Shown here: positions 1,576-31,124 of the stretch, one piece after another
How positions within the stretch are numbered: the first letter of the stretch is position 1
Layout of the letters: each line of letters starts with the position of its first letter
Source: a virus
IMG/VR virus record: IMGVR_UViG_3300017757_000070
Coordinates: 1 to 31,124 of that record
Strand: one strand, 5' to 3'
Length of the DNA stretch: 31,124 nucleotides
The notes under the pieces: generated by a model
The model's input: the letters and a program-made list of their open reading frames with translations, nothing else
The model's database searches: none
What the model was told of the DNA's origin: nothing
Translations under genes and position numbers: made by a program

Positions 1576-4500
1576 ATGCCATCAGTCAAAGTACCTATTC
1601 AAAGTTTAAATGGTGGTATCTCTAGACGATCTAGTCTTAAAAGGTTACCACAAGAAACACAAGAAGCTGACAATGTTTTACTTAGTGTAGAAAGATCAGC
1701 TGAAAAACGACCACCTATCTCTCACATTGATACAGGTACTGAAGGAGACTACCTTGATATTCCTTATGTTTCAGGGGGACCACCACCCACTGCTAGTGGA
1801 ATCTCTGATCCGGCACTCTATTATAATACGGATAATTTATACTATCACTTTATTGATGTTGATGGGGCTAATCGTTATTGTATCATTATAAATAGAGCGG
1901 TAGAGAACACAAAAGAAATTGTAACTGTCTATCGAATTGAACCTACTCAATGGGTAAAAGAAAATTTTGAGTATCAATCATTTGACAGAGGATTAAAAGA
2001 ATATATCCAACACTTTAATCTAAAGACAGACTCCACCCCTAACCTAAGCATTGATGAAATCATGGGTAGTGTTACGTTTGGTGCAGGTGCTGTGTTTTAT
2101 AACAAACAAAAAGAACTAAAGTTTTTACCTGACAACAGCAGCCAAGTGAAAGTACTTGGTAGTATCTCAGGGTTTCAAGAACCACACCCCGGTTACATTC
2201 ACTCGGGTGATAAGTTTAAATATAAAACAGCAGATATGTTTTTTGTAGATGCTCAGGGCAATCAAGCCAATGGTGCAACAGTTCGTTTCCCTAATGCTAT
2301 TGAAGAGGACGAAGGTATTGTTCCTTATCAACCATCTAAAGATGATGACCTATTATATTCCAAATGGATCTCAACTGTAGCTAGCACATCAGGTGGCGGT
2401 TATAAAAATGTTGACGAGGATATTGAAACAAGAGTTAACTCAGCTACGTTAGTTAGCTTTGAAGTAGGACACTCATTAGAAAACTTTTCTAAGATTCCTA
2501 TCCCGCCTCCCACTGATGATGTAGATTCGCACGCTGGATGGAAAGCCCAAGCAGCAATGAAACATCTCTATCATAGAAGAGAATCAGGTATTCCTAATAC
2601 TGTTGAAGCAGGATCAGCAGCAGCTACTGGAACGATTACTCTTACAGATAACTTACCTGCTGATGGTACATCTTTTGTTTTAAAAAACACTGACACTAAT
2701 GTACAGTTATTTAATTTTAAATTTAAAACAAGTGAAGACCATGTACACCAGCCACCAGAAAGAGATCTTGATGGTAATTATATCATTGGCTTAAATGGTA
2801 TTACTAGCGGTCAGGTGAATGTTACAGGTGCTGCGGTTGCTCAACGAATTAAAGAAGTGTTGACCTACTTGCAACCAATCACTACATTTATTACACCTAC
2901 CGTAGACACAAGTACAAATGTATTAGCTAAAGTTGTTGCTTTAACTATGAATGAACTAGGTACATTTGGTAACGAACCTATTACAACTAGGAATGCACAA
3001 GACGTTGCTGCTACTATTCCAGATGTAACAGTTGCTGGCTTTACTGGTGGTACTGATGCCCCTGACTATGGCTATCTTAGTAGCCCCTTCTCTTCTATTA
3101 CAAGAACTGATTCTGTTTACCAGTATGATGGTGCTAACTCAAATGGCAAAGGTGAAATCTGGTACGCTAGAGATTCTTACTTTACATTCCCTAGTGGTTT
3201 CTACAGAACTGTAGGTAATGTAAACACAGGACAACCTTACTATCAACCAGTAAGAGCAGAGGATAAAAATTCTGTAATTGATCATAGAACTTTCCCTGTT
3301 ATTATTAGAAAAGAATCAGATGGTGTATGGCGTATTAGATACTGTCCCTTGTTACCTAAACAAAATGGTTCAGCTATTAATAACCCCGGACCTACTGCTA
3401 TTAACAGTGAAGAAAAAATTAAGGCTATTGAGTTTTGGAAAAACAGACTGTGGATTGCAACTGAGACTACAATCTTTTCGTCTAGTGTAAATGACTATTT
3501 TAATTTCTTTATTGATGATATCCAAAACATTACTGACACAGATCCTATTGATATTACGGTAAACACAGGTCAGTTTAACTTAGTACAAAGCTTAACATCT
3601 TTCCAAAACTTTTTGTTTATTACAACACAAAGTGGCAATCAGTTTGAAGTACGAGGATCAGCTACAAACGGTGGAGCTATCTCCCCTACTACTGTAGAAC
3701 TAAGAAGCACTAGTTTTTATTCTACTGCGTCTACCGCTAACCCTGTAAAGATGGGGAATAATATTTTCTTCTTTGATACAGAACGTTTGTTTATCTATAG
3801 TGGTACTGATTCATTTGGTAATGAATATGGCACAGCTTTTGAATTGTCTCAACATGCTCATGGCTATCTGCCTTTCAACTACCAAGTAACTACAGCTATT
3901 CCTTCTATGAATACACTAGCTATGGTAGACAGAGATGCTAAGAATAATATTTATTTCTATACAGCAAAAACAAACGGACAAGAACTAGTACAAAGTGCAT
4001 TCTATCGTTGGGTATTAGACCCACAAGATTTAGTACAGAAGATTCATGGGTTTGAGGGAGCTATGTATACGATTGTAAAAAGATCTAATGGATCACAGAA
4101 TGCAATCTATCCTTACTATGCTTCGTTAGAACCAGTAACCCTAGCTACTCCTTTGTTAGATAGGCTAGTTAAACTAGGCTCTAGTAACATCACCTATAAC
4201 AGTGATACTAATCTAACTGAAGTACAGTTACCTTACTATGATCCTAATGCAACAGAGGTAGTACTCGGAGATGACTGGGGAACAAAAGCTTACACAAGAC
4301 ACAAAGCATCAGCCGTGACATCAATAGATTTTGGTAGTCACTTTAAAACTAAGTTAACTTTCCCCGGAAACTTAGCAAGCCAAAGAGTAAGCAATAGTTT
4401 TGTAAACAGGAGTGTATGGGCTGGGCGACCCTACACCATGTCTCTTGAGTTGTCACCTATTCATTATAGAGATAATAACAACAATGCACAGCCCGGAGTT

Positions 4501-4797
4501 CTTACATTAAAGAGAGTTACTACTCATCACAAAGACACAGCTCAGTACGAAGTTGAAATTAAAAGATATAATAGAACAGCATCGACAGTAAGAAGCGAAG
4601 CATTTTCTTTTAATGATACAACAGATTTACTTGGCTCAATTAGAATTGAATCTGAGGGAGAATTACTTTCCAAGGTTATGGGTAACGCAGATTCAACTAC
4701 TATTACTATCAAGAGTGACTTCCCCACACCTTGTAATATTACTGGCTTAGAAGTTATTGCTAACTACAGACCGGGCAATACATCTATTCAGAAATAA
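1576..4797 (+). CDS. Tail tubular protein B / nozzle (T7 gp12-like) with an inserted domain
   Basis: The 1073-residue protein is the nozzle candidate directly downstream of the gp11-like gene. N-terminal V-K-V-P-I-Q-S-L-N-G-G-I-S-R with Q-E-T-Q-E-A-D-N-V-L, and later R-L-F-I-Y-S-G-T, are typical of this family (structural, about 800 aa in T7). It is about 280 residues longer than T7 gp12. Roughly half of the excess is a separable Thr/Gly/Val-rich block at residues 343-494 (about 2602-3057). That block ends in L-G-T-F-G-N, then V-A-G-F-T-G-G-T-D, and resembles blocks inside the next gene. Its likely role is the distal tube through which DNA leaves and a platform for fibres. A strong ribosome-binding site (AGGAGGGGG) lies at 1561-1569. 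The insertion may face outward as an adhesion module; that is inference. Confidence 0.93.
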   Translation: MPSVKVPIQSLNGGISRRSSLKRLPQETQEADNVLLSVERSAEKRPPISHIDTGTEGDYLDIPYVSGGPPPTASGISDPALYYNTDNLYYHFIDVDGANRYCIIINRAVENTKEIVTVYRIEPTQWVKENFEYQSFDRGLKEYIQHFNLKTDSTPNLSIDEIMGSVTFGAGAVFYNKQKELKFLPDNSSQVKVLGSISGFQEPHPGYIHSGDKFKYKTADMFFVDAQGNQANGATVRFPNAIEEDEGIVPYQPSKDDDLLYSKWISTVASTSGGGYKNVDEDIETRVNSATLVSFEVGHSLENFSKIPIPPPTDDVDSHAGWKAQAAMKHLYHRRESGIPNTVEAGSAAATGTITLTDNLPADGTSFVLKNTDTNVQLFNFKFKTSEDHVHQPPERDLDGNYIIGLNGITSGQVNVTGAAVAQRIKEVLTYLQPITTFITPTVDTSTNVLAKVVALTMNELGTFGNEPITTRNAQDVAATIPDVTVAGFTGGTDAPDYGYLSSPFSSITRTDSVYQYDGANSNGKGEIWYARDSYFTFPSGFYRTVGNVNTGQPYYQPVRAEDKNSVIDHRTFPVIIRKESDGVWRIRYCPLLPKQNGSAINNPGPTAINSEEKIKAIEFWKNRLWIATETTIFSSSVNDYFNFFIDDIQNITDTDPIDITVNTGQFNLVQSLTSFQNFLFITTQSGNQFEVRGSATNGGAISPTTVELRSTSFYSTASTANPVKMGNNIFFFDTERLFIYSGTDSFGNEYGTAFELSQHAHGYLPFNYQVTTAIPSMNTLAMVDRDAKNNIYFYTAKTNGQELVQSAFYRWVLDPQDLVQKIHGFEGAMYTIVKRSNGSQNAIYPYYASLEPVTLATPLLDRLVKLGSSNITYNSDTNLTEVQLPYYDPNATEVVLGDDWGTKAYTRHKASAVTSIDFGSHFKTKLTFPGNLASQRVSNSFVNRSVWAGRPYTMSLELSPIHYRDNNNNAQPGVLTLKRVTTHHKDTAQYEVEIKRYNRTASTVRSEAFSFNDTTDLLGSIRIESEGELLSKVMGNADSTTITIKSDFPTPCNITGLEVIANYRPGNTSIQK
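2602..3057 (+). other. Inserted F-T-G-G-x-D module in the nozzle protein
   Basis: Residues 343-494 of the gp12-like protein form a block with the same end signature as three blocks in the adjacent 1748-aa fibre protein: a hydrophobic strand, then G-x-x-G-N, about 15-25 residues, then F-[TS]-G-G-x-D. A helix (V-A-Q-R-I-K-E-V-L) precedes the strand, as in the fibre blocks. I do not know a family name for it. It looks like a mobile virion-surface domain. Confidence 0.6.
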
Positions 4798-4807
4798 GAG
4801 GTGACTG

Positions 4808-7800
4808 ATGGCTGACTGGATTAGATCTCCTGATAATAAATGGTTTATGAATTCTAGATGGGTAGCGTATGCTTTTGAAAGTGCAAAAAATAACTCTACT
4901 CAATGGAACACATACTATGGTGCTTATGGCACACGCTTTAACACAGCAGGACTTAGAGATTCTTCAAACCCTAACTATAAAAGAGGCTCTGTATCTAGCA
5001 GCTGCACTATTTGTGATTTTGTTGGACGATGTGGTTGGACTCCTGTCTTAGAAGATATTGTTTGTAGAATGGCAGACCAACAATGTAAAAATGAAACATG
5101 TGTTGATAACAATGGAAACCCAACGGGGTGTTGGGCTGAATGTTTTAACTGGGAGTGCGATAATTTTGGAAGCGGTTACCCAGCTGATTGGTATTCAAGT
5201 GGGTGTAATAGTCCTGATTTTGAATTACCTTGTGACATGGAGTGTCCAACCCTACCTCCTGAAGATTGTCAAATTGCTTTGTGTAATTATACATGTTCGT
5301 CTCCTCCATTAGATGAATGCCAATATTGTGTGGGTCGAGATGGTAATTTAGTTCCTTGTGTGCTTATTGATGATTCAGTTCCGGGGGTCATAGTTAAAAC
5401 ACCAAACCCTGAAGCAGTATGTAATCCATGTAATGGTGGTTGTGAAGGCATTACTGCTTGTCCATGTGGGCCGGAAGGTTGTTTCCTTTCAATGGGTGAC
5501 AACTGTCCACCTACATGTTGCGTACCCGGAGAATATGAATGCTGTCCTTGTGGTGATTACTGGGCACCCTGTGGTATGTGCTGTGATCCTACTGTAGAAG
5601 ACTGCGGAAGCTGTAGTCCTTATGGTTACCCAGCTCCAGCTTCTTACTGTCGTAGTTGTGAGCATTGTAACAATGATCCAACACAACCTCAGTGTTCATC
5701 AGATCCAACCCCAGATACACCACATGGTTGTTGTCTATGTGATATTAATGATACGTGGTATGATTGTAATATAGAAGACTATTGTATTCCACCAGAGTGT
5801 GATGATTTCTCTTCTAACTGTTATGCTTGCGGCGACAAAAGAATTCCAATCTGGTTTGATTGTGAAGAAGTAGATCCGTGTGCTAATCCCTATGACCCAG
5901 ATTGTAATCAAACAGGAGATCCTATTGTGTGCTACGAATATAACACAAACGACCCAATTTATTATAATGCATCTAACTTAGGTGCTACAGTTATTATTGA
6001 GTATGAGAACCCCGTCACAGGCGGCTCTGGATACTCTTACGGAAACGTAGCTACACTGTGTGAAGTCCCTGACCAATTACAGTTGTGCGTTTTTTTAAAA
6101 ACTTCCGGTGGTGCAGAAACTAAATTAACATTTGAAACAGACTACACTTTAGCAAACGAAAAAGTAATCTTAAATAGCTCAGTAAATACTTCTGGCTTTA
6201 CAAAGCTATTACTTAAGAGATGTACAGACGATTCTAAAATGTTTGTTACCTTTAAAGACGGAGCTAAGTTAAGTGCTGATGATGTTAATGCTTCTATGCA
6301 CCAGCTATTGTTCTTAATTCAAGAAAAAGAATTTGCAGCTAATGCATATACTCAGGTATTAAATGCAGCTACTACTAAAGCGTCTATTGATTTCTTCTTA
6401 GACTCTACAAAAATTAAATCAACTGCTCTTAATGCATTGAACACTGATGGTGTCTATGCTGCTGGCCTTGATGAGTCTATTAGCTTTGCTATACCTGCTG
6501 CCCAAGGTGGTCAGGGTACTACCACTATTACTCTTGACAAAGACAAGGGTACTAATGCTAGTGGAGCAGCTAACACAATTGTTATTGGTACAATTGGAGC
6601 AGCCTCAGCTACAGCCTTGACTTGTGCTGCTGGTACAGCGGCTCATGGGCTTACTGAAAAGCAACACCTTACTCTAACATCTACAGATGGTACAGCTAAA
6701 AGGTATGTTATTACAGATACTGCTAATGGTGGCGTAGCTACAAGTACTGTGCTTAGTGACAGTGGTAACACTGATACAGGTACAGGAACTGCGGGTGCTG
6801 CTGAAGATGGTGGTATTGCTGTTGGCTTAAACTTAAGTAGTGCTACTCAACACGATGTACTAACACAATTTAAGGTAGCTATTGAACATGCTAACGGACA
6901 CAATGGTAAGATTACTGTAGCTGCTGTTCCTTCAACAGGTGGCGGTGGCCTAAGCGTTGCTCTTACTCAAGCTACTGCTGGCCTTGATGGCAACAAAACT
7001 GTAACAGAAGACTTAGCTAGTACAATTAACTGTGCTAACTTTAGTGGGGGTGGTCTTACCGACACTGCTGTAAGAGATCTTCTTGTTAAAGCAATTAACG
7101 GAACCCTTGATGGGGTTATTAAAGATGCTACCTCAGGCAACGGAACTGATGGTATTCAAGGAGTTACTGCAAGTGCTTCTAGTACTACTCAAATTAATCT
7201 AGAGATGGATAGGGCTGGTACTATTGGTAATATTACTAGTGCTTTGGCTGAAGCAGATGGTACTACAGGAGATGAGCTTGTCGCAGTCACAGCGTTTACT
7301 GGAGGTAAAGACTTTACTTCCACAGAGTTTGATGCCTTTACTTTCCAACTCTCAGCGTATGAGACTTCTGGAGTTACAACAAAGACATATGTATTTGATG
7401 ATGATAATGACGGAGCAACAGGCACACTTGATGGCTCTGGTCAAGTTCGTATTCAACTCCATAACCTTGCATCTATGGCTGAACTCTCTACTGCTATTGA
7501 AGCTGCTATTGCTCATTCCAATGGGCATGGTACTAAGCTTACTACACAGCGAGCAACATTTGATCCTTATGGTAACTCTGATGTTACATACAATAGGCTT
7601 GTTGTTAAACAAAGTGTAGCAGGAGTGGCTGGTAACCTACAAAACCTAACACATAGTGCAGAACTTAACGCTAGGATGAACGCTAATGGTGCTGGTCAAG
7701 CTAATACAGCATGGAACTTTACTGGTGGGCAGGACAATGACGCTTCAGATCCTATCATTACCTTTGATCCTCCAACATCATTGCCTGTTAACTTTGATTT

Positions 7801-10054
7801 AAGTGCCGTACAAGTAAACAGTGTTCTATCATGGGATGGTACTGGTGGGTTTATTGGTGCTTCGCCTACGCAAATTGTACAGCAAGTTCCTGTAGGCAAT
7901 CACTCAGACATTAGTCTAGGTACTGTATCAACAGGTGACTTCTTATTGTTTGATGGTACTAACTGGACTGACAGGAACCTAGAGACCGAAGTTAAAGCTA
8001 TTACTAATGTCTTTGACTTTACTAATTGGGTCAGTTACAGCTTAGGCTCAGACTCTACGCTAGATAACTACTATCTTTCTGATTGCGATGGTCTTATCCA
8101 AACCGAATGGACTAATGCTGGTACTTGTATTACTAATCTTGATAAAAAGCTAGTACCTAATGCTATTACTTCGTTTGGTATTGGTTATTATGCAGCTGCT
8201 GCACAGATTAAAGCACAAACAATTGATGCAACCAGTGACCTAGTAACTAAAATTACTGAACAAGTAAACAGTGTTACTAGTGGTGGTGCTATTCATGCTT
8301 CCTTGCGATGGGAATTAAGTAGAGCAGAAGGTAGAAGCGGAACTGGATTAACTGCCTACCCACTATCTTACTTTGATATTAGAGACTTTGATTATCTAGA
8401 TCATGCAGAAGGTACGTCCTCTGCTGGAGAACTAGATGGAGATAATACTCCTAACTCAACTACAACTAATACAGCTTATTATAGAAACTGGGGAGGCATT
8501 ACTGGCGATTCTAATAATACACACAAGAACAAATTGTTTATTAATAACATCAAGAGCTTTGTGTTTGACCCAGAAAAATCTAGATGCTCTGGCTTTGGTC
8601 CTCACTGTATTGATACAAACTGTGATGGTAATATCTTAACAGGAACTCCTCAGAATAAACCTTCAGAAGATAGGTATTTAAATTCTATTAGAAGAGTGAT
8701 TAATAAAACTGATTGGGATACTGCTCTTAACTATGGTTATGCAAGCTCACACCCACTTAAGGATTATCCAAACGCTACTAATAGTGGCTCAACTCCTCCT
8801 GTAAAATCATACTTAGACTTTACTAATGAGCTTATCTATCCTATGTATACTTATAATACTCTTAAGCAAACCGACAAAGAAGCTTCTGGTAGTACATCAG
8901 AAACAACAAATGGTTGGGTATGGAAGTCAACTAAAAACGTTCCTCTTGTTGTGACTTACTACTTGTCTCACCTATGGGGCAATGGCGTAGGTGCAGCAGA
9001 ACCAAGTCTATTACAATGGGATGGTAACATTGATGCACTTGGTGATATGGATGCAATGACAGATAATACTAACCCATACAATTCTTCTACTCATGGTGGC
9101 GTAACCTATGCTACTAAGACACAAGAAACATTCCTTGGGGCAACAGGAAACAATTGGTTCTATTGGAAGTGGTTGATTCTTGGTAAAGATACTGACACTA
9201 GTGGTAGTGCCAATGATTCTACAAAGTACGATGAACTGTCACACTTTAATCCATTTAATAAAGCTCACCTTGCATTAGATAGTGACAATAAATATTCGCT
9301 ACTTCCTGCTGATGGTGAAGATGCTTCTGGTTTCTCTGCTACTAAAGAAGCTTCAAGAGATTCTGCCTATTCGTATTTGGTTCCGGCTAACCAAGTATTT
9401 AGTAATCTAGCTAATGTTCTTCCTGATCTAAAGGATGAGTATGTCTTTAGTGTACGCTTTAGAACTCCTAAGGTCTCAACACTTGACTGTCCTGACGCAA
9501 GTTGCTATCAAGTTAGAGCTGTTATTGAAAAATTCATTGACGGTTCAGCAAGCTCAGGTGATACTAGGTCTACTAAGGTTGGTAGTGCGGCAAGTGAAAA
9601 CAACGGACACCATATTTATCCTGAAGACTTTGATGCCAATGTAGTTAAGGTATGGGAATCATATCCCTATGAGGATTTGGATATTGAAATTAGATCTAAG
9701 ACCGGAGATGGTTTTGATCTAGTGCTTAGAGTCCCTAGGCTTAAACGAATTGGTGTGATTGATTTATATGCTGATGAATTTGATGGTCCTGACTTTGACT
9801 ACAGGCATCAAGCACTTAGTTGGCTAGCTGATTATGTTGCAACTGACTTTGATGGTGCAGCTACAGTCAGACAGCCTGACGGCACTAGTGATACTGCTAA
9901 TGACCCTGCCCAGTTGCAGGCTCTTAAGACAGACAGTATTGCAGCTGTGAGCGTTGAGACAGCAATTCAATTCGTTAGGTTGGGTATCCCATCTAGCGTT
10001 AGAGTTGAGTTCTCAGTTACTGATACCCCACAAAAACGTGTCTTCTCAACATAA
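4808..10054 (+). CDS. Giant tail fibre / adhesin with Cys-rich N-terminus and gp17-type segment
   Basis: The 1748-residue protein has several parts. Residues 1-65 are aromatic-rich (S-R-W-V-A-Y-A-F). Residues 66-375 carry about 50 Cys, with C-x-x-C, C-C and C-P-C-G patterns. Residues 466-508 resemble the T7 gp17 tail-fibre N-terminal domain (F-V-T-F-K-D-G-A-K-L-S-A-D-D-V-N, then L-L-F-L-I-Q-E-K-E). Residues 568-976 hold three modules ending in F-[ST]-G-G. Around 1026-1060 is the fibre motif H-S-D-I-S-L...G-D-F-L-L-F-D-G-T-N-W. The last 700 residues are unassigned and rich in Asn, Ser, Tyr and Trp, as expected for receptor-binding regions. It would sit on the tail with the gp11/gp12-like proteins. 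The Cys-rich segment lies before the attachment domain, which is unusual because gp17-type domains are normally N-terminal. Start: ATG at 4808 after AGAGGTG at 4798-4804. Confidence 0.9.
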   Translation: MADWIRSPDNKWFMNSRWVAYAFESAKNNSTQWNTYYGAYGTRFNTAGLRDSSNPNYKRGSVSSSCTICDFVGRCGWTPVLEDIVCRMADQQCKNETCVDNNGNPTGCWAECFNWECDNFGSGYPADWYSSGCNSPDFELPCDMECPTLPPEDCQIALCNYTCSSPPLDECQYCVGRDGNLVPCVLIDDSVPGVIVKTPNPEAVCNPCNGGCEGITACPCGPEGCFLSMGDNCPPTCCVPGEYECCPCGDYWAPCGMCCDPTVEDCGSCSPYGYPAPASYCRSCEHCNNDPTQPQCSSDPTPDTPHGCCLCDINDTWYDCNIEDYCIPPECDDFSSNCYACGDKRIPIWFDCEEVDPCANPYDPDCNQTGDPIVCYEYNTNDPIYYNASNLGATVIIEYENPVTGGSGYSYGNVATLCEVPDQLQLCVFLKTSGGAETKLTFETDYTLANEKVILNSSVNTSGFTKLLLKRCTDDSKMFVTFKDGAKLSADDVNASMHQLLFLIQEKEFAANAYTQVLNAATTKASIDFFLDSTKIKSTALNALNTDGVYAAGLDESISFAIPAAQGGQGTTTITLDKDKGTNASGAANTIVIGTIGAASATALTCAAGTAAHGLTEKQHLTLTSTDGTAKRYVITDTANGGVATSTVLSDSGNTDTGTGTAGAAEDGGIAVGLNLSSATQHDVLTQFKVAIEHANGHNGKITVAAVPSTGGGGLSVALTQATAGLDGNKTVTEDLASTINCANFSGGGLTDTAVRDLLVKAINGTLDGVIKDATSGNGTDGIQGVTASASSTTQINLEMDRAGTIGNITSALAEADGTTGDELVAVTAFTGGKDFTSTEFDAFTFQLSAYETSGVTTKTYVFDDDNDGATGTLDGSGQVRIQLHNLASMAELSTAIEAAIAHSNGHGTKLTTQRATFDPYGNSDVTYNRLVVKQSVAGVAGNLQNLTHSAELNARMNANGAGQANTAWNFTGGQDNDASDPIITFDPPTSLPVNFDLSAVQVNSVLSWDGTGGFIGASPTQIVQQVPVGNHSDISLGTVSTGDFLLFDGTNWTDRNLETEVKAITNVFDFTNWVSYSLGSDSTLDNYYLSDCDGLIQTEWTNAGTCITNLDKKLVPNAITSFGIGYYAAAAQIKAQTIDATSDLVTKITEQVNSVTSGGAIHASLRWELSRAEGRSGTGLTAYPLSYFDIRDFDYLDHAEGTSSAGELDGDNTPNSTTTNTAYYRNWGGITGDSNNTHKNKLFINNIKSFVFDPEKSRCSGFGPHCIDTNCDGNILTGTPQNKPSEDRYLNSIRRVINKTDWDTALNYGYASSHPLKDYPNATNSGSTPPVKSYLDFTNELIYPMYTYNTLKQTDKEASGSTSETTNGWVWKSTKNVPLVVTYYLSHLWGNGVGAAEPSLLQWDGNIDALGDMDAMTDNTNPYNSSTHGGVTYATKTQETFLGATGNNWFYWKWLILGKDTDTSGSANDSTKYDELSHFNPFNKAHLALDSDNKYSLLPADGEDASGFSATKEASRDSAYSYLVPANQVFSNLANVLPDLKDEYVFSVRFRTPKVSTLDCPDASCYQVRAVIEKFIDGSASSGDTRSTKVGSAASENNGHHIYPEDFDANVVKVWESYPYEDLDIEIRSKTGDGFDLVLRVPRLKRIGVIDLYADEFDGPDFDYRHQALSWLADYVATDFDGAATVRQPDGTSDTANDPAQLQALKTDSIAAVSVETAIQFVRLGIPSSVRVEFSVTDTPQKRVFST
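5003..5932 (+). other. Cysteine-dense segment of the giant fibre
   Basis: Residues 66-375 of the 1748-aa protein contain about 50 Cys, roughly one per six residues, with many Pro, Asp, Gly and Asn between them. Local patterns include C-N-P-C-N-G-G-C, C-P-C-G-P-E-G-C, T-C-C-V-P-G-E-Y-E-C-C-P-C-G and M-C-C-D. The spacing is irregular, so it is not a clean EGF or zinc-ribbon repeat. The rest of the same protein has very few Cys. Confidence 0.9.
6509..7735 (+). repeat. Three related F-[TS]-G-G modules in the giant fibre
   Basis: Three diverged blocks are visible at residues about 568-747, 748-834 and 842-976 of the 1748-aa protein. Each ends with a hydrophobic strand, a G-x-x-G-N turn and F-[ST]-G-G. 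Blocks one and three share the helix-end motif A-I-x-H-[AS]-N-G-H before the strand. The block in the upstream nozzle gene belongs to the same type. Boundaries are approximate because the similarity is at motif level. Confidence 0.65.
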
Positions 10055-10064
10055 GGAGTTATAA

Positions 10065-11948
10065 ATGTCACATAGAACAGCATCAACTGTAATTGAAAAG
10101 ATTTTTACAGCTACTACTTATGAAGTAGACGCAGTAACTTGGGATCCTTATTTAACTTTGATTCCAGAAATGGGTATCTCCCAACTCCAAGTTTATTACA
10201 GGACTACGGGAACTACTGAATGGGCATTTGTAACAAAGGCATCGTGGAGTAATACATATAACTCTTCTGCTAACACAATTGATTTAACAAACGCAACTGT
10301 TACCTCAAGTGGTTCTGAAATCCCAGCTACAATAAATGCAACTACGCATGATATTAAACTAGTAAGAGATACATCAGAAAGTTTGTTTGTTAGTTTTAAA
10401 AATGGAGCTAAGCTTGACGCAGACGATCTTAACGTAGTAAATCTACAAGCTATCCATCTTATTCAGGAACTAGATAATACAGTAGTCGTTGATGATGATA
10501 ACATCTATACTTACATTGCTGCTCAGCTAGCAAACTACTATACTAAAACAGAGATTAATAATTTCTTTAGTTCTTTAACGTTACCTAACTGGCAGGCAGA
10601 TTATCCTTATGTAGTTGGTGATACTGTTCTTCATGATGATCCTAATACAACAGAAACTACTCTCTTAATTTGGTATTGCGGAGTAGATCACACAAGTGAA
10701 ACAGCTAATCAACCAACAAGTGGTAGTAATATTTGGACTAACGTTGCACCAGATTCTTCGTTAGATAACCTACAATACATCAGAAAAATTCCAGGTTTAG
10801 ATGCAACAGAACTTAATTGGAATACAATCATACCACAAAACGCTAATGCACCTGCTTTAGTTCTTACACCACACGCTTCTCAATCGGTTAGTATGTTTAA
10901 ACTTACAAACAGCAACCAGACTACTGATCTAATTACAATGAGTTTAGAAAGCGCAAACATAGGTAAGCTTTATCTAGACCGTGCTAATTTATATGTAGAT
11001 AATACTTCTTATTTGGGTCATGATGGTCTTTCCTCTACTCTTTTTCATTACAACGGAGTAACACAAGGACTTACTGCTCGTCCAACAATTGGTATAAAAC
11101 AAAAAAGCAACTCGCATGCTCTGTTAGTACAAGACAGTGGTACTACTGATAACTCAAACACTGCCAATAATATATTTACTGTTGGTAATTTAGGGACTAA
11201 TTTAACAAAGGTTTGGGGAGACTTTAAAACAACAGGAACAGTAACAGAAATTAGTTCACCTAATATTGTCTTTGGTTCTACTAGTTCTAAAGATTGTTAT
11301 GGTACGTTCCTTAGTTTTGGTGGCGGTGGTCCTATTGATAGTCCTATTAGAATTCTTAGAGGTGTAAATGTTGGAACAGTTGATAATTGTACTAACAATG
11401 CTTTTACTTCTAGATTTACTGTGTTTGAAACTACAGGTAATTTTACTAGTGCAGGTGATGCAACTATTACTGGTACTGTAACTGGTGGTGAGTTTAAAGA
11501 CGCAACGTTAGCTAATGCTACATATCTTTCAGCGGATGCTAACGGAGTTATCTCTAAAGAAACAGGAAGTATCCCAGCAACAAACAGATTGTCCCTTGCT
11601 ATCACAGGATCTAACACAACTCTTAGTGATCGTGATGTTGTTTATTTAGATAATAGCTCAGGGTTGTGGACCAAATCTGTAGCATCTGATCCCTCTAAAT
11701 TATCTATTGGTATGATTGATGATAAGACTGGAAGCGATGGCAGTCAATCATTTAATGTCATTTTCTCTGGATCTGTTGGTGGTTTCTCAAGCTTAGAAGT
11801 AGGAAACTATTGTTGGCTTAGTGGAACTGGCGGCATTACACAGACCAGACCTACGTCAGCTGGCGCACTTGTAGACCCTGTTGGTCTTGCAGTATCAGCT
11901 ACTACTGTATATGTCTTACCCGCTAGACCACACAAGGAACCCACCTAA
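10065..11948 (+). CDS. Second tail fibre with gp17-type N-terminus and carbohydrate-binding-like domain
   Basis: The 627-residue protein carries a T7 gp17-like tail-attachment segment at residues about 97-137 (I-K-L-V-R-D-T, F-V-S-F-K-N-G-A-K-L-D-A-D-D-L-N, H-L-I-Q-E-L-D). A short helical motif Y-Y-T-K-T-E-I-N-N-F-F follows at 158-168, often seen at fibre trimer junctions. Residues 176-227 look like a small CBM5/12-type sugar-binding domain. The shaft region is rich in Thr and Asn, and the last 120 residues form a beta-rich cap with repeated Gly. It starts after AAGGAG (10053-10058), ten bases from the previous stop. It may form a second fibre type or a branch with the 1748-aa protein. It contains the only CCWGG site in the window (10791). 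Confidence 0.9.
   Translation: MSHRTASTVIEKIFTATTYEVDAVTWDPYLTLIPEMGISQLQVYYRTTGTTEWAFVTKASWSNTYNSSANTIDLTNATVTSSGSEIPATINATTHDIKLVRDTSESLFVSFKNGAKLDADDLNVVNLQAIHLIQELDNTVVVDDDNIYTYIAAQLANYYTKTEINNFFSSLTLPNWQADYPYVVGDTVLHDDPNTTETTLLIWYCGVDHTSETANQPTSGSNIWTNVAPDSSLDNLQYIRKIPGLDATELNWNTIIPQNANAPALVLTPHASQSVSMFKLTNSNQTTDLITMSLESANIGKLYLDRANLYVDNTSYLGHDGLSSTLFHYNGVTQGLTARPTIGIKQKSNSHALLVQDSGTTDNSNTANNIFTVGNLGTNLTKVWGDFKTTGTVTEISSPNIVFGSTSSKDCYGTFLSFGGGGPIDSPIRILRGVNVGTVDNCTNNAFTSRFTVFETTGNFTSAGDATITGTVTGGEFKDATLANATYLSADANGVISKETGSIPATNRLSLAITGSNTTLSDRDVVYLDNSSGLWTKSVASDPSKLSIGMIDDKTGSDGSQSFNVIFSGSVGGFSSLEVGNYCWLSGTGGITQTRPTSAGALVDPVGLAVSATTVYVLPARPHKEPT
10590..10745 (+). other. CBM5/12-like segment in fibre two
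   Basis: Residues 176-227 read W-Q-A-D-Y-P-Y-V-V-G-D-T-V at the start, I-W-Y-C-G-V-D-H-T-S in the middle and N-I-W-T-N-V at the end. The pattern Y-x-x-G-D-x-V, then [WY]-x-C-x-x-x-H-T-S, then W-x-x-[VL] matches small carbohydrate-binding modules known from chitinases and phage fibres. A role in binding surface sugars is inferred. Confidence 0.55.
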
Positions 11949-11959
11949 GGAGAAAACTA

Positions 11960-13153
11960 ATGGCACAGAATATTGACTTAATTGAAATTGTTTCAGCAGC
12001 CAGTGGTGGCTGTGGTTGTTCAGCTGGTGATTTTGCTGGAGACTTTATTGCTAAGACTGAAGGTACATTCATTACTTCCTTAAGTTCTACTGGTGGAAAA
12101 TCTACTTGGGCTTATAGTGGAGACACTGCAACATTTACCTTAGGTACGTTATCTTCTACAGATGTAGGAACGCTTACAGTTCAAGGAGCTACTGATGCAG
12201 ACGCTATTATTTATGTAAAAAGTAATGATGGCTCTTCTACAACCATTACTCCTGTTAACGTTAGTGCTGAAACACTTACTATCTCTGGTGCTGCAACCAC
12301 AGCAGCCTTGACTGTATCAGGAAACCTAGAACCTAGTGCAGACTCAACAGATGGAAGTGATGGATTATATCTAGGTGCTAGTGGTAAACGATGGAGAAAA
12401 GTTTGGGCTAGGGACTTAGACGTAGAAGGTACGTTTACTGTAGCTAACTTAACTTTATCAGGGAACCTTGTAGTCAATGGAGATACTACTCTAGGTAATG
12501 CATCAGGTGATGCTGTTACTGTTACAGGTACAGCTACGTTTACACAAGAGGCAGAGTTTAATGGTGGTATTAATTGTGATGGTACATTAGCTATGGAAAG
12601 TAATGTTGTATCGGCTACAAACTGGGGCATTGCTTCCAATGGTAATGTTACTACATCAGGAACAGTAATTAGCTCAAGCGAAACTGCGTCTAACTTTCAA
12701 AAACTTATTGTAAACGATGCACCAACTTCAAACAAACACGCAGTTAGAAAAGTAGATGTTGATTTAGATACAGACGGTACATTTCAAATGGCTAGCGTTG
12801 TAGTTTCTGGTGGGTTTATTACTGGGGTGTCTGCAACTACAACAGCTAACATGTTAGACCACGCAGAACCCAACCACGCCACTACTAAGATTGATGGTAC
12901 ATCTCCTGCTAGTGGTAATGAGTCTGATGCTATTCATCCTTACATGGTAGGTGCTGTTGATAGAGAAAAACCTGTAGTAAAGGGACAGTTAGCTTTAACT
13001 TATAATGGAAGCAACGGATCTAATGATAACTATAGATACCCCGGAGAAACAAGCGCACAGTCTGTACCATATTTTAAAGTGATTGAAGCCACTGCAAATC
13101 CTACAGACGAGTCCGGTCCTCCTAATCAAATTATTTTTAGAAAGAGGACGTAA
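11960..13153 (+). CDS. Tail fibre / spike shaft protein
   Basis: The 397-residue protein is dominated by short beta repeats rich in Thr, Ser, Gly and Val. Residues 130-150 (G-S-D-G-L-Y-L-G-A-S-G-K-R-W-R-K-V-W-A) and 165-190 (L-S-G-N-L-V-V-N-G-D-T-T-L-G-N) match the fibre motif in which a G-x-x-x-K-x-W-x-x-V-[YW] strand precedes a beta-helical stack. The N-terminus has an S-G-G-C-G-C cluster at 15-20. It lacks the gp17-type attachment segment, so it may join the fibre complex through another fibre protein. The stop overlaps the next ATG (TAATG at 13151-13155), implying coupled synthesis with the 892-aa adhesin; one may be the shaft of the other. Start follows AAGGAGA (11947-11953). Confidence 0.88.
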   Translation: MAQNIDLIEIVSAASGGCGCSAGDFAGDFIAKTEGTFITSLSSTGGKSTWAYSGDTATFTLGTLSSTDVGTLTVQGATDADAIIYVKSNDGSSTTITPVNVSAETLTISGAATTAALTVSGNLEPSADSTDGSDGLYLGASGKRWRKVWARDLDVEGTFTVANLTLSGNLVVNGDTTLGNASGDAVTVTGTATFTQEAEFNGGINCDGTLAMESNVVSATNWGIASNGNVTTSGTVISSSETASNFQKLIVNDAPTSNKHAVRKVDVDLDTDGTFQMASVVVSGGFITGVSATTTANMLDHAEPNHATTKIDGTSPASGNESDAIHPYMVGAVDREKPVVKGQLALTYNGSNGSNDNYRYPGETSAQSVPYFKVIEATANPTDESGPPNQIIFRKRT

Positions 13154-15831
13154 TGGGTACAGAAGATGAAAACAGACTATGGATTAGAGACAACAGCGGC
13201 AATCCTGTAGAGGTCGATGGCGTGTGGGCTAGAGATTTTAGCGGAACTGCTCATGAAATTGGTGAAATTTGGATTAGAGATCTTACTGGTACGCCAGTTC
13301 AAGTTTACCCTCATCTTCCCGGTGCTGATAACCCCCAAGACGGAGCTATCTGGAGACAAGATCACTATTGTGAATGGTGTCAGTTTAATAATCCCGGCAC
13401 TTCTGATTATCCTCAGTGGTATACAGGAGGATCTTCTGTTGCTTTGCCTGAGTTAATTGAAAAGGGAGAAGGACTGAACAAAGCATTGTGGTTCTTTACA
13501 AATTATGGACAAGACCCACAAAGTTTTGCAACAGAATATACAAGATATAAATGGCTTCAACCCGGAGCAAGTGCAACAAACGATGGTGGAGAATACCCCC
13601 TTAATAAATTAGAGTGGGGTTCATGGGGTACAATTATTAGAAGAGTACCTAACATTAACAGTCTAACTGAGTCTGCTAGTAATTTTATTGAAAGAATTTG
13701 GGTTCGTCCAGCTACTATAAATTCTATAGACAAATCAGGTGGGTGGGATTCTGCTACAAATGCTATAGTGTGGGATCAAGAAGTAGAAGAAATAGAAGAT
13801 GTCCAATCTATTGACATAGATAGGGCACTCAATATTAATAGGCTATCAAATACCTTAGAGTATTTTGAGTTTGAGTCCCAAGGAAACAAGGGAGTAGAGA
13901 ACCAATTACTTTCTTTTAATCTACCAAACTCTTGTCAGCAAACAGGAGATATCTTAGGTTATTTTAATATGAGAGGAACAGATGGTTTTTCAGATCTTAT
14001 TAAACCTATTCAATTTAGGAGTGATGTAGATTTCAATCGAGGATCGTACACTTCTGTAAACAATATAGATACTGTGCCTCATGTTAAACTAGATAACTCT
14101 GGTTCTCCAGCAGATAGAACGGCTAAGTGGGTCGTTATTACTAATACTAATTGGAATACTAGTGTAGAATATGGTACTACTAACAATAGAGCATATTGTG
14201 GTCAAAACTCTAATGCTTCTATTTGGCTTAGAAACTTTCCATGTAACAAAGACAAGGACGTTGCTGACGAATATTCAACACACAAAGAAATTATTGTAGC
14301 CTTAGTAGCTAACAAGACAAACGGTACTGGATCGGCTTACGATTTTGCTGCAAACTATAATGGAGATGCGGACGACGCTAACTTCTTTGCTGAATCTAAT
14401 GGATCAGTTGCTTCTGATAGATGGCACACATGGGATGGTGATGGTCAAGTATTTTTATTTGTAAGATACAGAACATCTTGTTTTGGTAAATATCACCACA
14501 GTGGAAACCCATTTCTTAATGAAGTTTCTAATTGGCAAACCCCAGAACCAGCAATAAAAGAATTTTGGATTCAACCTAAAGCATGGAAGTATGTAAATGG
14601 TACAGGATTAGAATGGAATGCTTCAGATAGTAATGATGCTACTCAAGATAAGTTTATTGGTATGGTTCTTGATACTATCCCAACTACTTATTCAGATGTT
14701 TGTAGTGGATATGGAAGACTTACACCAGAAAAAGCTGCATTTAATCTACCAAAATATTTCTTTTGGAATGTACCACTAGATAAATGTGATCCTAATTTCC
14801 CTCCGGGTGGAACCGCATTAGTTGGTTTTGATTCTATCTCTTCTTCTGGTATGCCAACTAACAAATGGTGTTGGGGTACTTCAATAGGAAGCGAAGGATG
14901 GTCTGGTACTACAGGCAGACAAGATTTAATTGGTGCTGGTGTCTATTCATGGGAAAGTGGATTTGATCCTAACCCAACTGCAAATCAATACTTAGCACCT
15001 GATGCATCTTATGAATTTAAATTACTTCAATTTAATAAAGACTGGTCTTCAATGGATGGGTTCCCTTATGGGGTAGGTCATGCATGGGGCGGTGATATTT
15101 TATCTCCCGGTCCTTGGTGCCCTTGTACAATATCACCAGCTTATGATACTAGTAGCGGATTTGACAGCAGCGATCCTGATGATCCCGGTTGGACTAACAC
15201 AAATCATTATGGTCATGCTAGTAACCCTTGTCCTTGCGGTGAGAGTGGTAATGACGATTGGCGAACTACAGGCGGAACCACTCTTCTCTATGCTAATAAT
15301 TCTAACATGTGTTGTACACCTACGGCCCAGCCTACTAGTGTGTATATGATTAGAATGACAGAAGCAAACCAAGATTGGTCTGAATCTGATTGGGCAACTT
15401 ACAGTAACTCCGCAGCTAATATCATTTGGAGCAATTGCTCTAACGATCAAGGCTATCAATGTCAAGCTTGTGCTGAAACTTCACCGTTCTGTGGTAATTG
15501 GTGGGAGTATCACCCCGGAGCTTTCCATACCCCTGATGCAGAAGTTGGCGATGGTTGTAATGGTGGTGGTATTGCTATTGGATGTGCTATAGAATCATTC
15601 TGGGATCAGTTTGATTGGTGTTATACACCTCCAGAACAATGGGGCGAAGGACACCCCGGATGGAATTGTGAATGTATTTGTGCAGCGTTCTCTGAAGCGT
15701 ATTACGAAGGCTATGCAGACAATGGTGGGACGTGTGAAACCAGAGCAAAAGCATTGTATGCCGCTTCTCCGTGTGATTGTACAACAGTAGCAGGAGGTGT
15801 CTTTAATAGTGCCACCGAGTGGTTAAGATAA
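13153..15831 (+). CDS. Trp/Cys-rich tail adhesin with three W-x-R-D repeats
   Basis: The 892-residue protein opens with three tandem 15-residue repeats at residues 9-53. The middle (54-650) is rich in Trp, Asn and Asp, without a domain I can name. Residues 656-876 hold 19 Cys, with C-P-C-G, M-C-C and C-E-C-I-C patterns, plus many Trp. The protein has no signal peptide or membrane segment. Its place at the end of the fibre block, coupled to the shaft-like 397-aa gene, suggests a distal receptor-binding protein. The Cys-rich C-terminus echoes the Cys-rich N-terminus of the 1748-aa protein, although spacing differs. Function beyond adhesion is not supported. Confidence 0.87.
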   Translation: MGTEDENRLWIRDNSGNPVEVDGVWARDFSGTAHEIGEIWIRDLTGTPVQVYPHLPGADNPQDGAIWRQDHYCEWCQFNNPGTSDYPQWYTGGSSVALPELIEKGEGLNKALWFFTNYGQDPQSFATEYTRYKWLQPGASATNDGGEYPLNKLEWGSWGTIIRRVPNINSLTESASNFIERIWVRPATINSIDKSGGWDSATNAIVWDQEVEEIEDVQSIDIDRALNINRLSNTLEYFEFESQGNKGVENQLLSFNLPNSCQQTGDILGYFNMRGTDGFSDLIKPIQFRSDVDFNRGSYTSVNNIDTVPHVKLDNSGSPADRTAKWVVITNTNWNTSVEYGTTNNRAYCGQNSNASIWLRNFPCNKDKDVADEYSTHKEIIVALVANKTNGTGSAYDFAANYNGDADDANFFAESNGSVASDRWHTWDGDGQVFLFVRYRTSCFGKYHHSGNPFLNEVSNWQTPEPAIKEFWIQPKAWKYVNGTGLEWNASDSNDATQDKFIGMVLDTIPTTYSDVCSGYGRLTPEKAAFNLPKYFFWNVPLDKCDPNFPPGGTALVGFDSISSSGMPTNKWCWGTSIGSEGWSGTTGRQDLIGAGVYSWESGFDPNPTANQYLAPDASYEFKLLQFNKDWSSMDGFPYGVGHAWGGDILSPGPWCPCTISPAYDTSSGFDSSDPDDPGWTNTNHYGHASNPCPCGESGNDDWRTTGGTTLLYANNSNMCCTPTAQPTSVYMIRMTEANQDWSESDWATYSNSAANIIWSNCSNDQGYQCQACAETSPFCGNWWEYHPGAFHTPDAEVGDGCNGGGIAIGCAIESFWDQFDWCYTPPEQWGEGHPGWNCECICAAFSEAYYEGYADNGGTCETRAKALYAASPCDCTTVAGGVFNSATEWLR
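13177..13311 (+). repeat. Three 15-residue W-[IA]-R-D repeats
   Basis: Residues 9-23, 24-38 and 39-53 of the 892-aa protein align without gaps: L-W-I-R-D-N-S-G-N-P-V-E-V, V-W-A-R-D-F-S-G-T-A-H-E-I and I-W-I-R-D-L-T-G-T-P-V-Q-V, each followed by two variable residues. The consensus is [LVI]-W-[IA]-R-D-x-[ST]-G-x-[PA]-x-[EQ]-[VI]. The unit looks like a beta-hairpin repeat at the attachment end. Confidence 0.9.
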
Positions 15832-27302: not shown

Positions 27303-30300
27303 ATGTCTAAAGGTTGTGATCCTAATTGGTTAGCAAATCAAAAGAAAGCTATGGAAGAAGCAGGATTTGCTAAAAATGATATTAAAATCGCTCTTGATAT
27401 AATGGCAAAAGGAACGGTAGAACGAGGAGCATTTGCTAAAGCCGTTAGTTCTGCGGTGGAGGTCGAAACATTTAGCGAAGGTGAACAATCAGAATTAGAC
27501 AACCTTAATCTAAAAATTTGGGCAAAGCTTGGTGATAATAAAAATAGAAAAAACATGGTTGAAGCTTTAGACAGTGATGATTACTCTCGATTTAAATTCT
27601 TGCAATTAAAAAAACAAGCGGCTGAAACAAAAACAAGAGGCATTACTATGAAGCCAAGGAAAAAAACCTTGGGATATAAAGAAGCCCTTGAAGCACAGAT
27701 TGCAAAGTATGAACAAACTAGACCAAACAAAGCAAAGAGAATTAAAAAAGCAGTAGATGATATGGTCCGAACAGGACAAGTAAACAGTAATCTAAACAAC
27801 TCTTTTAAAAAAGTAAATGATTTATTTCGTGATAAAGAAAAGCTAAAAGAACTTTGGTTATTTACCAACCAACAAATCAACCTTCAAAACCCTAAGTATA
27901 AATCTTATGTTGCTGATAAAAAAGAAATCATGGGCAGAAAAACTCAGGCAAATAAAGAGCTAACTGACTTATCAAAAAGAATTGACAAGCTTCAAGCTAA
28001 ATTAGAATCTTTAATTGAAGGCGGTCAAAACTCTCCTAGTGCAACAGAAAAGATTAATGAGACATTAGCAAAGATTGCTAAGCTTAAAGACAAAGCAGAC
28101 AAACTTAATATACAACTTCTAAAAGAAGATGGGTTATTAAATAAAATCTGGCAAGAATTAAAAAAGTCAGAGGAAAAAAATCCAACTACAAGAAACCTTG
28201 TTGATATTAGGAAAGCTATTGGTAAAGAAATTAAGAAGATTGATTATGAAATGACATCCGCTGGTTTTGTGCATGAAGGATTTATCCAGCACATTCTTGA
28301 TACCGATACTAGTGCTACCCTTCGAGGCATGACAGAGGATATGAAACTTGCTAAGGCTGATGCTGATGCAAGAGAAAAACTTTACAAGACATACTTTGAA
28401 GAAAAAGAAGAAGTAAGCACTGTCACAATCCAGCAAACTCTTGGTCAAACTTTTGTAGAACAAAGAGCTGAAGGTAAAGACTTTCTTACAGAAGAAGAAG
28501 TAGACAAGATCTTTAAAGAGTGGAAAGGTATTAACTTTCAGTATGCAGGCACACAAGGTATTCTATTAGCTGACATTGAGTTTGCAACTTCTGAAACTTT
28601 GCAAGCTATGGCTGATGCAGCACAGGCAACCAGTGAAAGCAACATTGATCAAACAAACAATGACACTCTTATTATTCCTATCTTAACAATGCGAGAGGTT
28701 ATTGAAAGATCTAATCCCGGTACAATCCCAGAAGAGAATAGAGGGATTACCCCACAAGAAACATACAACAAACTAGCACAGGTATTGAGAAAACTTGCTA
28801 CGCTTAGGTCTATGCCGGGATATGGCAAACATGTTTCTAGCGCACGCATCCAAAAAATCTTTGCGGATATTACTGGCATTGATGATGTTAACCCATTAAT
28901 TTTATTTAGTGATGATATCGTTAGCATGAACAGACAAGCACCAGAGCTTGATGCTGATAACAGAGTATCATTGCTTAGAAAAAGTATGGAAATGCTAGGC
29001 TATACTCCTGAACAAATTGAAACAATGCCGGAGTTACAGAACTATTCTGAATGGCTACAAGATGATAAAGCAGTATCTATTGATATTGAAACTTCTTTGG
29101 AGGACGATAACAATACAATTCTTGTAGTATCTGTAGTTGGAACTAACGGTAAGAGAGTTAAGTACGAGCTAAACAAAGATGGAATTACTCAGGAATCTGC
29201 TGCTGAAGTACTACAATTATTAGAAGACTCTCAGAACGACGGGATTAAAGTTGTTACTTATAATGGCAACGGGTTTGACTTAGTTAAGCTTGGTAATGTA
29301 GCTAAGAATCCTAATCAGGCAGCTAGAATTGCTTTAAGAAGTATTGACTTAATGCAGAATTTTGCTCACATGGACGCACATGAAGGAAGTTCTGTTACTA
29401 CCTTTGCACCTAAGCTAGATAACATTGCTAAAGCTATGGGCATGAAAGGGAAAACAGATAAGGGCGGAGGTCTTCTTACTTCTCTTTGGGCACTTAGAGC
29501 TTCTGATGAAAACTATACAGTTACAAAAGAAGATTTCCAAAAGAGAGGATTAGATAGAGCAGGCTATGATATGGAAGAAGTGCTTAAAGATATTAATGCT
29601 TTATCTTCTGTAGAGGCAAAGAAAAAAATTAAAGAGTATGCAGAACAAGATGCTGCTCTTAACCTTAATATCATTTATGGTCAACGACAGGAAGACGGAT
29701 CTAGTGTTGCAGGGCTTCGGCAGTATGGAGATGAAGGCACTACTGAATTCCCTCAGCCTGTAATAAATGCATCTAATCAAAAAGTTAATTTTGATATTAA
29801 ACCATATGCCCCTACTTGGAATATCACAGGATCTTCTACTAGTAGGTATGCTTTAAACAAAGGAATGGAAACATTTTTGTTAGTTCCTTCTGTAAATGAA
29901 ACACTTGGAAACGCTACTGAGCAATTTGGTACTGATTGGGAAGCTAATCAAATGGTTGATATTGATGGAGCAACACAAACTCTTCTCAACCTAATGGCTA
30001 GAGCTAAACATGCTGACCCAGAGACTAGATTATTTGCTACTGAGCTAGTCAAGATGGCACAAGAAGCTGCTACACCACAGCAAAAACTATTAGCTGAGGA
30101 GATTGAGCGACTTGAGCGACACCAAAATGCACTAACAGATATCGTAGCAGAAAACATTAAAACAGATCAAGAGAATAACAGACACTATCCTTTACGATTT
30201 GAAGCAGAAGGTCAGATTTCTTTTGCTAGTGACTCAGCTGAAGGAACAGAAACTGATTATAAACAACAGTACATTGACACAACTGTACTTGGTCTATTAG

Positions 30301-31124
30301 AGTATCTTAAGTTTACTAATCAAAGTTTAGACTCAGCTGCTAAAAAAATAAACTTTAGAAATAGAAACAACGATGAACAACAAGCTGATTATGCTATTGC
30401 TATGATGGAACACGTTTACAATACATATACACCTAACGAAAATATTAATCTATTTGACTTAGGGAATGGTAAGGTAGACTATGCCCCCGCTTTTAGTGTT
30501 GGTATTGGTATTGGTCAATTGATTTTTAATCAAAGAGAAGGTTTTATTCCTCGACCACACGATGCACAGATGAGAGAAGAGGGATACAAGTTTGCTAAGA
30601 CAGCAAAGAATGAACAAGAGAAGCACAATAGATCTATGTTCTTTAGAACCCCTTACCACCAAGATGTGAATCAAGCTTTGCCTAGATCTCTAGCAGAGGT
30701 TGATAGGGCGTTTAATGACTTTAGGCGAAGAGAAAGAATCAAGCATATCTTAGGGTATGATATTAAAAGTAATGAAGAAGCACTTGCTATTCTTAAAGGC
30801 TACACTAATCGAACAGAAAGTCCTGATGAAGTTTTATCAGAAGGCGGGACTCCTGTTCCTGAGCTAGTACCCAATACAAGCAATGCTATGCTTTTAAACA
30901 GAATGCCATCTTTAGAAGAACGTAGACGAATGGCACTAGAGTCCATGTTGGATATGCCTTCTATTCTTATGGCATGGAACCATGACGCATCGACACACGG
31001 CTTAGGACAAAGAGTATATTTAGATCCCCAAAAAACACCAACGTTCTTTGAACGAGCAGAAGAATCAGCAGGCGGCCCTACTGGCTCCACGCTTCTTTCT
31101 GGTATGGGACCACAGAGATCGGAA
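27303..31124 (+). CDS. Giant probable virion protein with internal DEDDy 3'-5' exonuclease, 3' end cut off
   Basis: The frame is open from ATG 27303 (AAGGAG at 27292-27297) to the window end, giving 1274 residues with no stop. Residues 60-330 are Lys/Glu-rich helices with coiled-coil character. Residues about 590-790 form a DnaQ-like domain: ExoI S-I-D-I-E-T (D594, E596), ExoII Y-N-G-N-G-F-D (D659) and ExoIII Y-A-E-Q-D (Y779, D783). Between them, K-L-D-N-I-A-K-A-M-G-M-K-G-K-T with G-G-G matches the DNA-polymerase-B-like exonuclease group (DNA_pol_B_exo2 type). All metal-binding acids and the Tyr are present, so activity is likely. The remaining 480 or so residues are unassigned. The gene follows the ejection-protein genes at 12 bases, which suggests a packaged protein; a replication role is the alternative. 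The last three codons may be adapter sequence. Confidence 0.92.
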   Translation, partial: MSKGCDPNWLANQKKAMEEAGFAKNDIKIALDIMAKGTVERGAFAKAVSSAVEVETFSEGEQSELDNLNLKIWAKLGDNKNRKNMVEALDSDDYSRFKFLQLKKQAAETKTRGITMKPRKKTLGYKEALEAQIAKYEQTRPNKAKRIKKAVDDMVRTGQVNSNLNNSFKKVNDLFRDKEKLKELWLFTNQQINLQNPKYKSYVADKKEIMGRKTQANKELTDLSKRIDKLQAKLESLIEGGQNSPSATEKINETLAKIAKLKDKADKLNIQLLKEDGLLNKIWQELKKSEEKNPTTRNLVDIRKAIGKEIKKIDYEMTSAGFVHEGFIQHILDTDTSATLRGMTEDMKLAKADADAREKLYKTYFEEKEEVSTVTIQQTLGQTFVEQRAEGKDFLTEEEVDKIFKEWKGINFQYAGTQGILLADIEFATSETLQAMADAAQATSESNIDQTNNDTLIIPILTMREVIERSNPGTIPEENRGITPQETYNKLAQVLRKLATLRSMPGYGKHVSSARIQKIFADITGIDDVNPLILFSDDIVSMNRQAPELDADNRVSLLRKSMEMLGYTPEQIETMPELQNYSEWLQDDKAVSIDIETSLEDDNNTILVVSVVGTNGKRVKYELNKDGITQESAAEVLQLLEDSQNDGIKVVTYNGNGFDLVKLGNVAKNPNQAARIALRSIDLMQNFAHMDAHEGSSVTTFAPKLDNIAKAMGMKGKTDKGGGLLTSLWALRASDENYTVTKEDFQKRGLDRAGYDMEEVLKDINALSSVEAKKKIKEYAEQDAALNLNIIYGQRQEDGSSVAGLRQYGDEGTTEFPQPVINASNQKVNFDIKPYAPTWNITGSSTSRYALNKGMETFLLVPSVNETLGNATEQFGTDWEANQMVDIDGATQTLLNLMARAKHADPETRLFATELVKMAQEAATPQQKLLAEEIERLERHQNALTDIVAENIKTDQENNRHYPLRFEAEGQISFASDSAEGTETDYKQQYIDTTVLGLLEYLKFTNQSLDSAAKKINFRNRNNDEQQADYAIAMMEHVYNTYTPNENINLFDLGNGKVDYAPAFSVGIGIGQLIFNQREGFIPRPHDAQMREEGYKFAKTAKNEQEKHNRSMFFRTPYHQDVNQALPRSLAEVDRAFNDFRRRERIKHILGYDIKSNEEALAILKGYTNRTESPDEVLSEGGTPVPELVPNTSNAMLLNRMPSLEERRRMALESMLDMPSILMAWNHDASTHGLGQRVYLDPQKTPTFFERAEESAGGPTGSTLLSGMGPQRSE
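29070..29672 (+). other. DEDDy exonuclease domain
   Basis: Residues about 590-790 of the giant protein contain all three exonuclease motifs in the right order and spacing: D594-x-E596, D659 in a Y-N-G-x-G-F-D context, and Y779-x-x-x-D783. It ends about 480 residues before the window edge, so it is internal rather than terminal. Confidence 0.88.
31116..31124. other. Possible sequencing-adapter remnant at the contig end
   Basis: The last nine bases, AGATCGGAA, equal the first nine of the common Illumina adapter (AGATCGGAAGAGC). The match lies flush with the end, where adapter read-through would leave it. The bases also keep the reading frame open, so a chance match cannot be excluded. Confidence 0.55.

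Follow-up and report, generated by a model that had tools for sequence, protein, structure and literature searches.

What is a module of about 50 cysteines doing at the front of a T7-like tail fibre? The usual picture of a phage fibre is of a variable distal tip and a plain N-terminal anchor; in the fibre studied here, a large, fast-exchanging Cys module lies before the anchor, and the start codon of the ancestral gene is still present within the fusion. We addressed this question in a window of 31,124 nt (the whole stretch of DNA analysed), a fragment from an uncultivated virus, deposited as IMG/VR record IMGVR_UViG_3300017757_000070.

The structural cluster of the window is T7-like: a tail protein, the nozzle, the Cys-module fibre, a second gp17-like protein, two structural-looking ORFs and the terminase. 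The fibre gene (4808..10054; this gene, its parts and its two neighbouring genes are on the + strand) encodes a long form of 1748 aa in one open frame and, as in all relatives, lies directly 3′ of the nozzle gene (gp12-like; 1576..4797; Pfam PF25675 Phage_nozzle, E 1e-65; PHROG 457). The T7-type terminase gene lies downstream of the fibre genes, and its product is ~37% identical to the terminases of marine and other podophages. Directly 3′ of the fibre gene is a second gp17-like fibre or adaptor gene (10065..11948), which matches PHROG 31166 tail fibre (E 2e-4) and PF03906 with an E of 0.0025, a score under the Pfam cut-off. In this second protein, residues 302-456 (10968-11432) are 49% identical between the window and a close relative (L003), compared with 80-92% around them. 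The nozzle protein is 1073 aa long in the window and in L003, as against ~917-922 aa in the other relatives, and thus carries extra sequence.

The fibre contains 63 cysteines, and 51 of these fall within the 310 residues 66-375, one per 6.1 residues; when the full-length sequence was shuffled 2000 times, no 310-residue stretch held more than 26. An earlier note on this DNA had put about 50 cysteines in this segment, and our count bears it out. The cysteines occur in four CC, three CxC and ten CxxC motifs. Because sister phages without the module carry C375 too, we assign this residue to the fibre anchor, so that the module proper comprises 50 cysteines in residues 66-366. It falls into two halves: a fast-diverging half with high dS between the window and L003, in which the cysteines are all kept (residues 66-238; 5003..5521), and a slower half holding the densest block of invariant cysteines (residues 239-366, CCPCGDYWAPCGMCC ... 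CYACGDKRIPIWFDC; 5522..5905). The N-terminal 60 residues (4808..4987) are free of cysteine and belong to the same extension; they form a Trp/Tyr-rich head (MADWIRSP..WF.N..W..YAFE....QWNSYYG) with 20 invariant columns in eight members, which is absent from the sister phages.

Profile searches of Pfam, PHROGs and the PDB returned no significant match over the Cys module, so no known Cys-rich family, a possibility that the earlier note had allowed for, came up. Among the isolated phages searched, neither the module nor the distal fibre had a relative; a search of bacterial genomes (GTDB) gave pattern matches only, none of them a relative; and an AlphaFold prediction of residues 1-520 (pLDDT 34) gave no usable model of the module. 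We found no tandem repeat at the DNA level, and because a Cys-hairpin motif (C...WIP...C) recurs weakly above shuffles and in some members only, we make no claim of repeats.

Searches of IMG/VR with the module, and then with alignments of the growing family, recovered relatives that share the module at ~40-100% identity. Main-type relatives were found in L001, L002/L003, L024/L025, L026, L027, L036, L039, L040, L041, L042 and L050. The contig L001 matches the window at 99.7% identity across 6.2 kb and represents the same virus; L002/L003 are ~93% identical to the window in DNA and keep 51 of 51 cysteines, in L003 despite an identity of 53% over residues 66-200. Between the window type and other lineages, pairwise conservation is 69-90% for cysteines and 37-45% for other residues; in comparisons of the window itself with the more distant lineages, the figure for other residues is 38-41%. 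A second, divergent type of module with 53 cysteines and the N-terminus MINSY/MPILNSY occurs in L056, L057 and L058, where the fibre is short (~810 aa) and the terminase follows soon after. The rear part aligns between the two types (hhalign probability 94%, E 1.6e-7, a score that Cys-rich composition can inflate); in the window this part is the slower half of the module.

An assembly or frame artefact, or a chimera, as the source of the Cys-rich ORF was considered and ruled out; nothing spoke in its favour. The same open frame recurs in many independent contigs from different metagenomes, with a dN/dS of 0.08-0.50 where computable, and the L001 and L002/L003 contigs confirm the frame, in which the earlier note had allowed for an error; such an artefact is vanishingly improbable.

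The part of the fibre behind the module can be assigned. Residues 375-511 (5930..6340) form a T7 gp17-type anchor of a jelly roll and a helix: PF03906 matches residues 440-511 (29.7 bits versus a cut-off of 25.2, E 6e-7); PDB profiles match T7 gp17 (7boz, E 8e-6) and also the P-SCSP1u fibre; and the fold that AlphaFold predicts for residues 374-521, with a core pLDDT of 70-93, is matched by Foldseek with probability 1.0 to 7y1c, 7ey9 and 7boz, the fibre N-termini of T7 and Kp9. The placing of the Cys-rich segment in a tail-fibre protein, ahead of a gp17-type attachment domain, was thus read correctly in the earlier note. The remaining residues, 512-1748 (6341..10051), make up the shaft and distal fibre and are conserved among the metagenomic relatives.

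A search with the nozzle protein identified sister phages (nozzle proteins 37-40% identical) in which the next gene is the orthologous fibre. These sister fibres match the fibre profile with E 1e-31 to 1e-55 and align only from profile position 335 on; their N-terminus, M-P-C-Y-N-Y-S-S-N-D-P-I-Y-Y (MPCYNYSSNDPIYY), lines up with window residue 374 onward. The sister gene begins exactly where the module ends; therefore, residues 1-373 constitute an N-terminal extension. A search of 13 sister contigs, which are fragments, turned up no module elsewhere in them. Comparison with the sister genes shows that a cassette of ~370 residues has been added in frame ahead of an entire gp17-type fibre, between the nozzle and fibre genes. 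The window fibre shares its profile, fold and gene order after the nozzle with the N-terminal domain of T7 gp17 (PF03906; 7boz, 7ey9; P-SCSP1u gp28, 8i4m). Whereas the fibres of T7 and of the sister phages begin with the anchor domain, the long form of the window fibre carries 373 residues with 50 cysteines before it; only in the predicted short form would the anchor stand at the N-terminus of the chain. The window fibre is a variant of the T7-like fibre, and its Cys segment belongs to no described Cys-rich family.

The short form is predicted from the junction itself, which reads ACA GGA GAT CCT ATT GTG TGC TAC in the window. Inside the coding frame, a Shine-Dalgarno sequence AGGAG (5914..5918) precedes codon 374, a GTG (5927..5929) that stands opposite the ATG start of the sister genes, whose own start region reads TAA-GGAGA-NNN(N)-ATG. 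The AGGAG lies in the same column in 7/7 main-type genes scanned and in L050, and the arrangement AGGAG-8 nt-GTG is in frame in all eight of these full-length genes. In each of the seven scanned, an AGGAG spaced at 5-9 nt is found for this GTG and for no other in-frame start codon, whereas synonymous shuffles contain 0.13-0.29 such sites per gene; predicted anti-SD pairing at the site ranks 1-3 among in-frame start codons in every gene. The motif contains three fourfold sites (ACA, GGA, GTG), all of them fixed over five lineages, versus 8/115 elsewhere (hypergeometric 6e-4); neighbouring synonymous sites vary, and the divergence across which the motif sites are fixed is saturated. GTG accounts for 14% of Val codons and for 5/19 in other Val-Cys pairs, yet it is kept in every member of both module types; in the second type, the Shine-Dalgarno sequence is a weaker AAGGA, 10 nt upstream.

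Internal Shine-Dalgarno sequences can be non-functional, and SD-like sites can also slow ribosomes. The motif could accordingly be a conserved pause, or a protein motif, that aids co-translational folding of a fibre made in the long form only. The flanking amino acids (TG, VCY) are themselves conserved, as this explanation would have it; a pause, however, needs no GTG at a fixed distance of 8 nt, and the site coincides exactly with the codon at which the sister genes start, so we consider the pause rather unlikely. The conserved ribosome-binding site and start codon instead suggest a candidate dual-start gene: given that both elements of the old start have been kept under selection in the fused frame, it is most likely that the gene makes two isoforms, a long fibre of 1748 aa and a short one of 1375 aa. 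A precedent for the arrangement is T7 gene 4 (63-kDa and 56-kDa proteins), which likewise has two in-frame starts and an N-terminal Cys-rich (zinc) domain in the long form alone; gene 4, however, encodes the helicase-primase for replication, is unrelated in sequence, and has 4 zinc-binding cysteines as against 50. A search of the literature on Cys-rich or dual-start tail fibres found nothing matching and, as far as we found, a nested-start fibre made with and without a Cys module is apparently undescribed for tail fibres.

The extension is also a site of exchange. When the window is compared with L003, residues 1-238 have a dS of 0.74-1.96, which falls to mostly 0.1-0.3 further on, and the amino-acid identity is 51-63% over residues 76-238; for L024 and L036, a dS of 0.74-2.45 across residues 1-303 gives way to 0.04-0.59 thereafter. 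A jump of dS inside the extension thus occurs in two independent pairs, and L024/L027 form the reverse mosaic, the extension being more alike than much of the adjoining nozzle. On these substitution profiles, the front part of the extension is swapped between genomes, giving the mosaic expected of an exposed, exchanged segment; exchange of an exposed region, though, need not mean receptor binding. In the nozzle, residues 151-300 (window 2026-2475) show strong divergence for the pair L024/L036 (dS 1.5) and weaker divergence for window/L003, much like the adjoining fibre extension. It is possible that the nozzle block and the fibre extension are contacting parts that are co-exchanged.

Three roles had been proposed for the cysteines in the earlier note: metal binding, disulfides formed after lysis, or a new adhesion fold. 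Of these, disulfides after lysis appear to fit best, because the cysteine number before the anchor is even in all eight full-length main-type members (50, 52, 48, 48, 48, 46, 44 and 50) with differences of two, the module is acidic with 0-3 histidines, and no thioredoxin or glutaredoxin was found. L003 differs from the window by two cysteines, a difference located within an insertion or next to it. The window module is strongly acidic and Pro-rich (53 D+E, 8 K+R and 39 P). As the second module type has an odd number, 53, the parity argument is not universal. Genes for thioredoxin and glutaredoxin were not found in 11 contigs from the relatives, a negative that does not extend to the Erv1 oxidase, for which the control gave no match; oxidation after lysis is therefore the simplest idea.

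Alternatively, the module could be a scaffold for zinc or another metal, loaded in the reducing cytoplasm and kept loaded in the virion. Such a scaffold would draw on the ten CxxC motifs and would fold inside the cell without an oxidant, in line with the lack of thioredoxin and glutaredoxin hits; against it, main-type cysteine numbers differ by two and not by four, histidines are few, the composition is strongly acidic and Pro-rich, and Pfam gives no match to a zinc-ribbon or zinc-finger family. We regard a metal scaffold as fairly improbable. The most likely state of the module is one held by disulfides, oxidised after lysis and facing the host.

Disulfides might also act between chains. The tail of the Agrobacterium phage Milano, disulfide-rich despite its synthesis in the bacterial cytoplasm, is stapled by disulfides, released by reduction and argued to need reduction before ejection (PMC10811340). 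By analogy, bonds between the module and the nozzle or adaptor could close the tail as a redox lock that would have to be opened by reduction at the host surface before ejection can proceed. The nozzle block that diverges along with the module would suit such a lock; this correlation, however, comes from two pairs (L024/L036 and, more weakly, window/L003), the nozzle ORF has only 3 cysteines, and the even counts suggest closure within the module. We therefore judge the lock unlikely, more so than the metal scaffold. The two systems also differ in build: in Milano, the disulfides join subunits of a contractile tail, in its sheath, tube, baseplate and receptor-binding proteins (PMC10811340), whereas the window encodes a podophage fibre with one discrete module of 50 cysteines.

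We propose, with moderate confidence in the explanation as a whole, that a fused cassette, two isoforms and a knob of disulfides formed after lysis at the tail hub act together in adsorption. The cassette consists of the 60-residue Trp-rich head and the ~50-Cys module, fused in frame before the complete gp17-type fibre. The two starts of the fused gene, for which the signal is plain and the translation presumed, would yield both an ordinary short fibre and a long one bearing the module. In P-SCSP1u, the three fibre N-termini of each trimer are non-equivalent and lie between the adaptor and nozzle docks (PMC10575957). Eighteen extra modules of ~40 kDa would be crowded at such a dock, and the short isoform would offer a simple route to mixed trimers, with fewer than three modules each at the adaptor-nozzle dock. 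Intramolecular disulfides would form only once the virion is outside the reducing cytoplasm, and would make the module a rigid knob at the hub that resists proteases. Exchange affects the front half of the module far more than the sequence around it; the knob therefore probably points towards the host or its surface polymers and may take part in adsorption, which is the weakest step of the proposal.

A different outcome would be that the module never enters virions, either because it is cleaved off or because the long product serves as an assembly chaperone, and that only the short fibre is built in. The short form corresponds to a complete sister-phage fibre, and a position N-terminal to the anchor is unusual, both of which speak for this outcome; but we recognise no protease or chaperone domain, and the strong conservation of the cysteines and the recombination of the front half better fit an exposed part of the virion, which makes the outcome quite improbable. 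Returning to the disulfide knob, we entertain tentatively, and with clearly less confidence than in the explanation above, that the window defines a new type of fibre: one with nested-start isoforms, mixed trimers and a recombining ~50-Cys module, oxidised after lysis on the hub side of the anchor, as a second element of host contact or ejection control beside the distal tip.

If both isoforms are made, the gene would be a clear example of a fusion that keeps the old product, and would provide a testable case of viral control over the number of accessory domains per fibre trimer. The module is also a test case for how virion parts rich in cysteine become oxidised when their synthesis takes place in a reducing cytoplasm.

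Several other ORFs of the window deserve mention. Another protein with many cysteines is encoded at 13153-15831, an 892-aa ORF with 28 cysteines, mostly within its last 240 residues, and without a relative among isolated phages; its positional counterpart in L024 (10675-11910, 411 aa) has N-terminal WIRD repeats in common with it and is not Cys-rich. Upstream, 5′ of the tail genes, lie small Lys-rich ORFs with few cysteines (393-614 and 733-927; GWVDCKTGKPCGRKS; KKDCGCKKR). At the far end, a large open ORF (27303-31124) contains a stretch that, judged by eye, resembles a DEDD-type exonuclease (SIDIETS...VTYNGNGFDLVKL).
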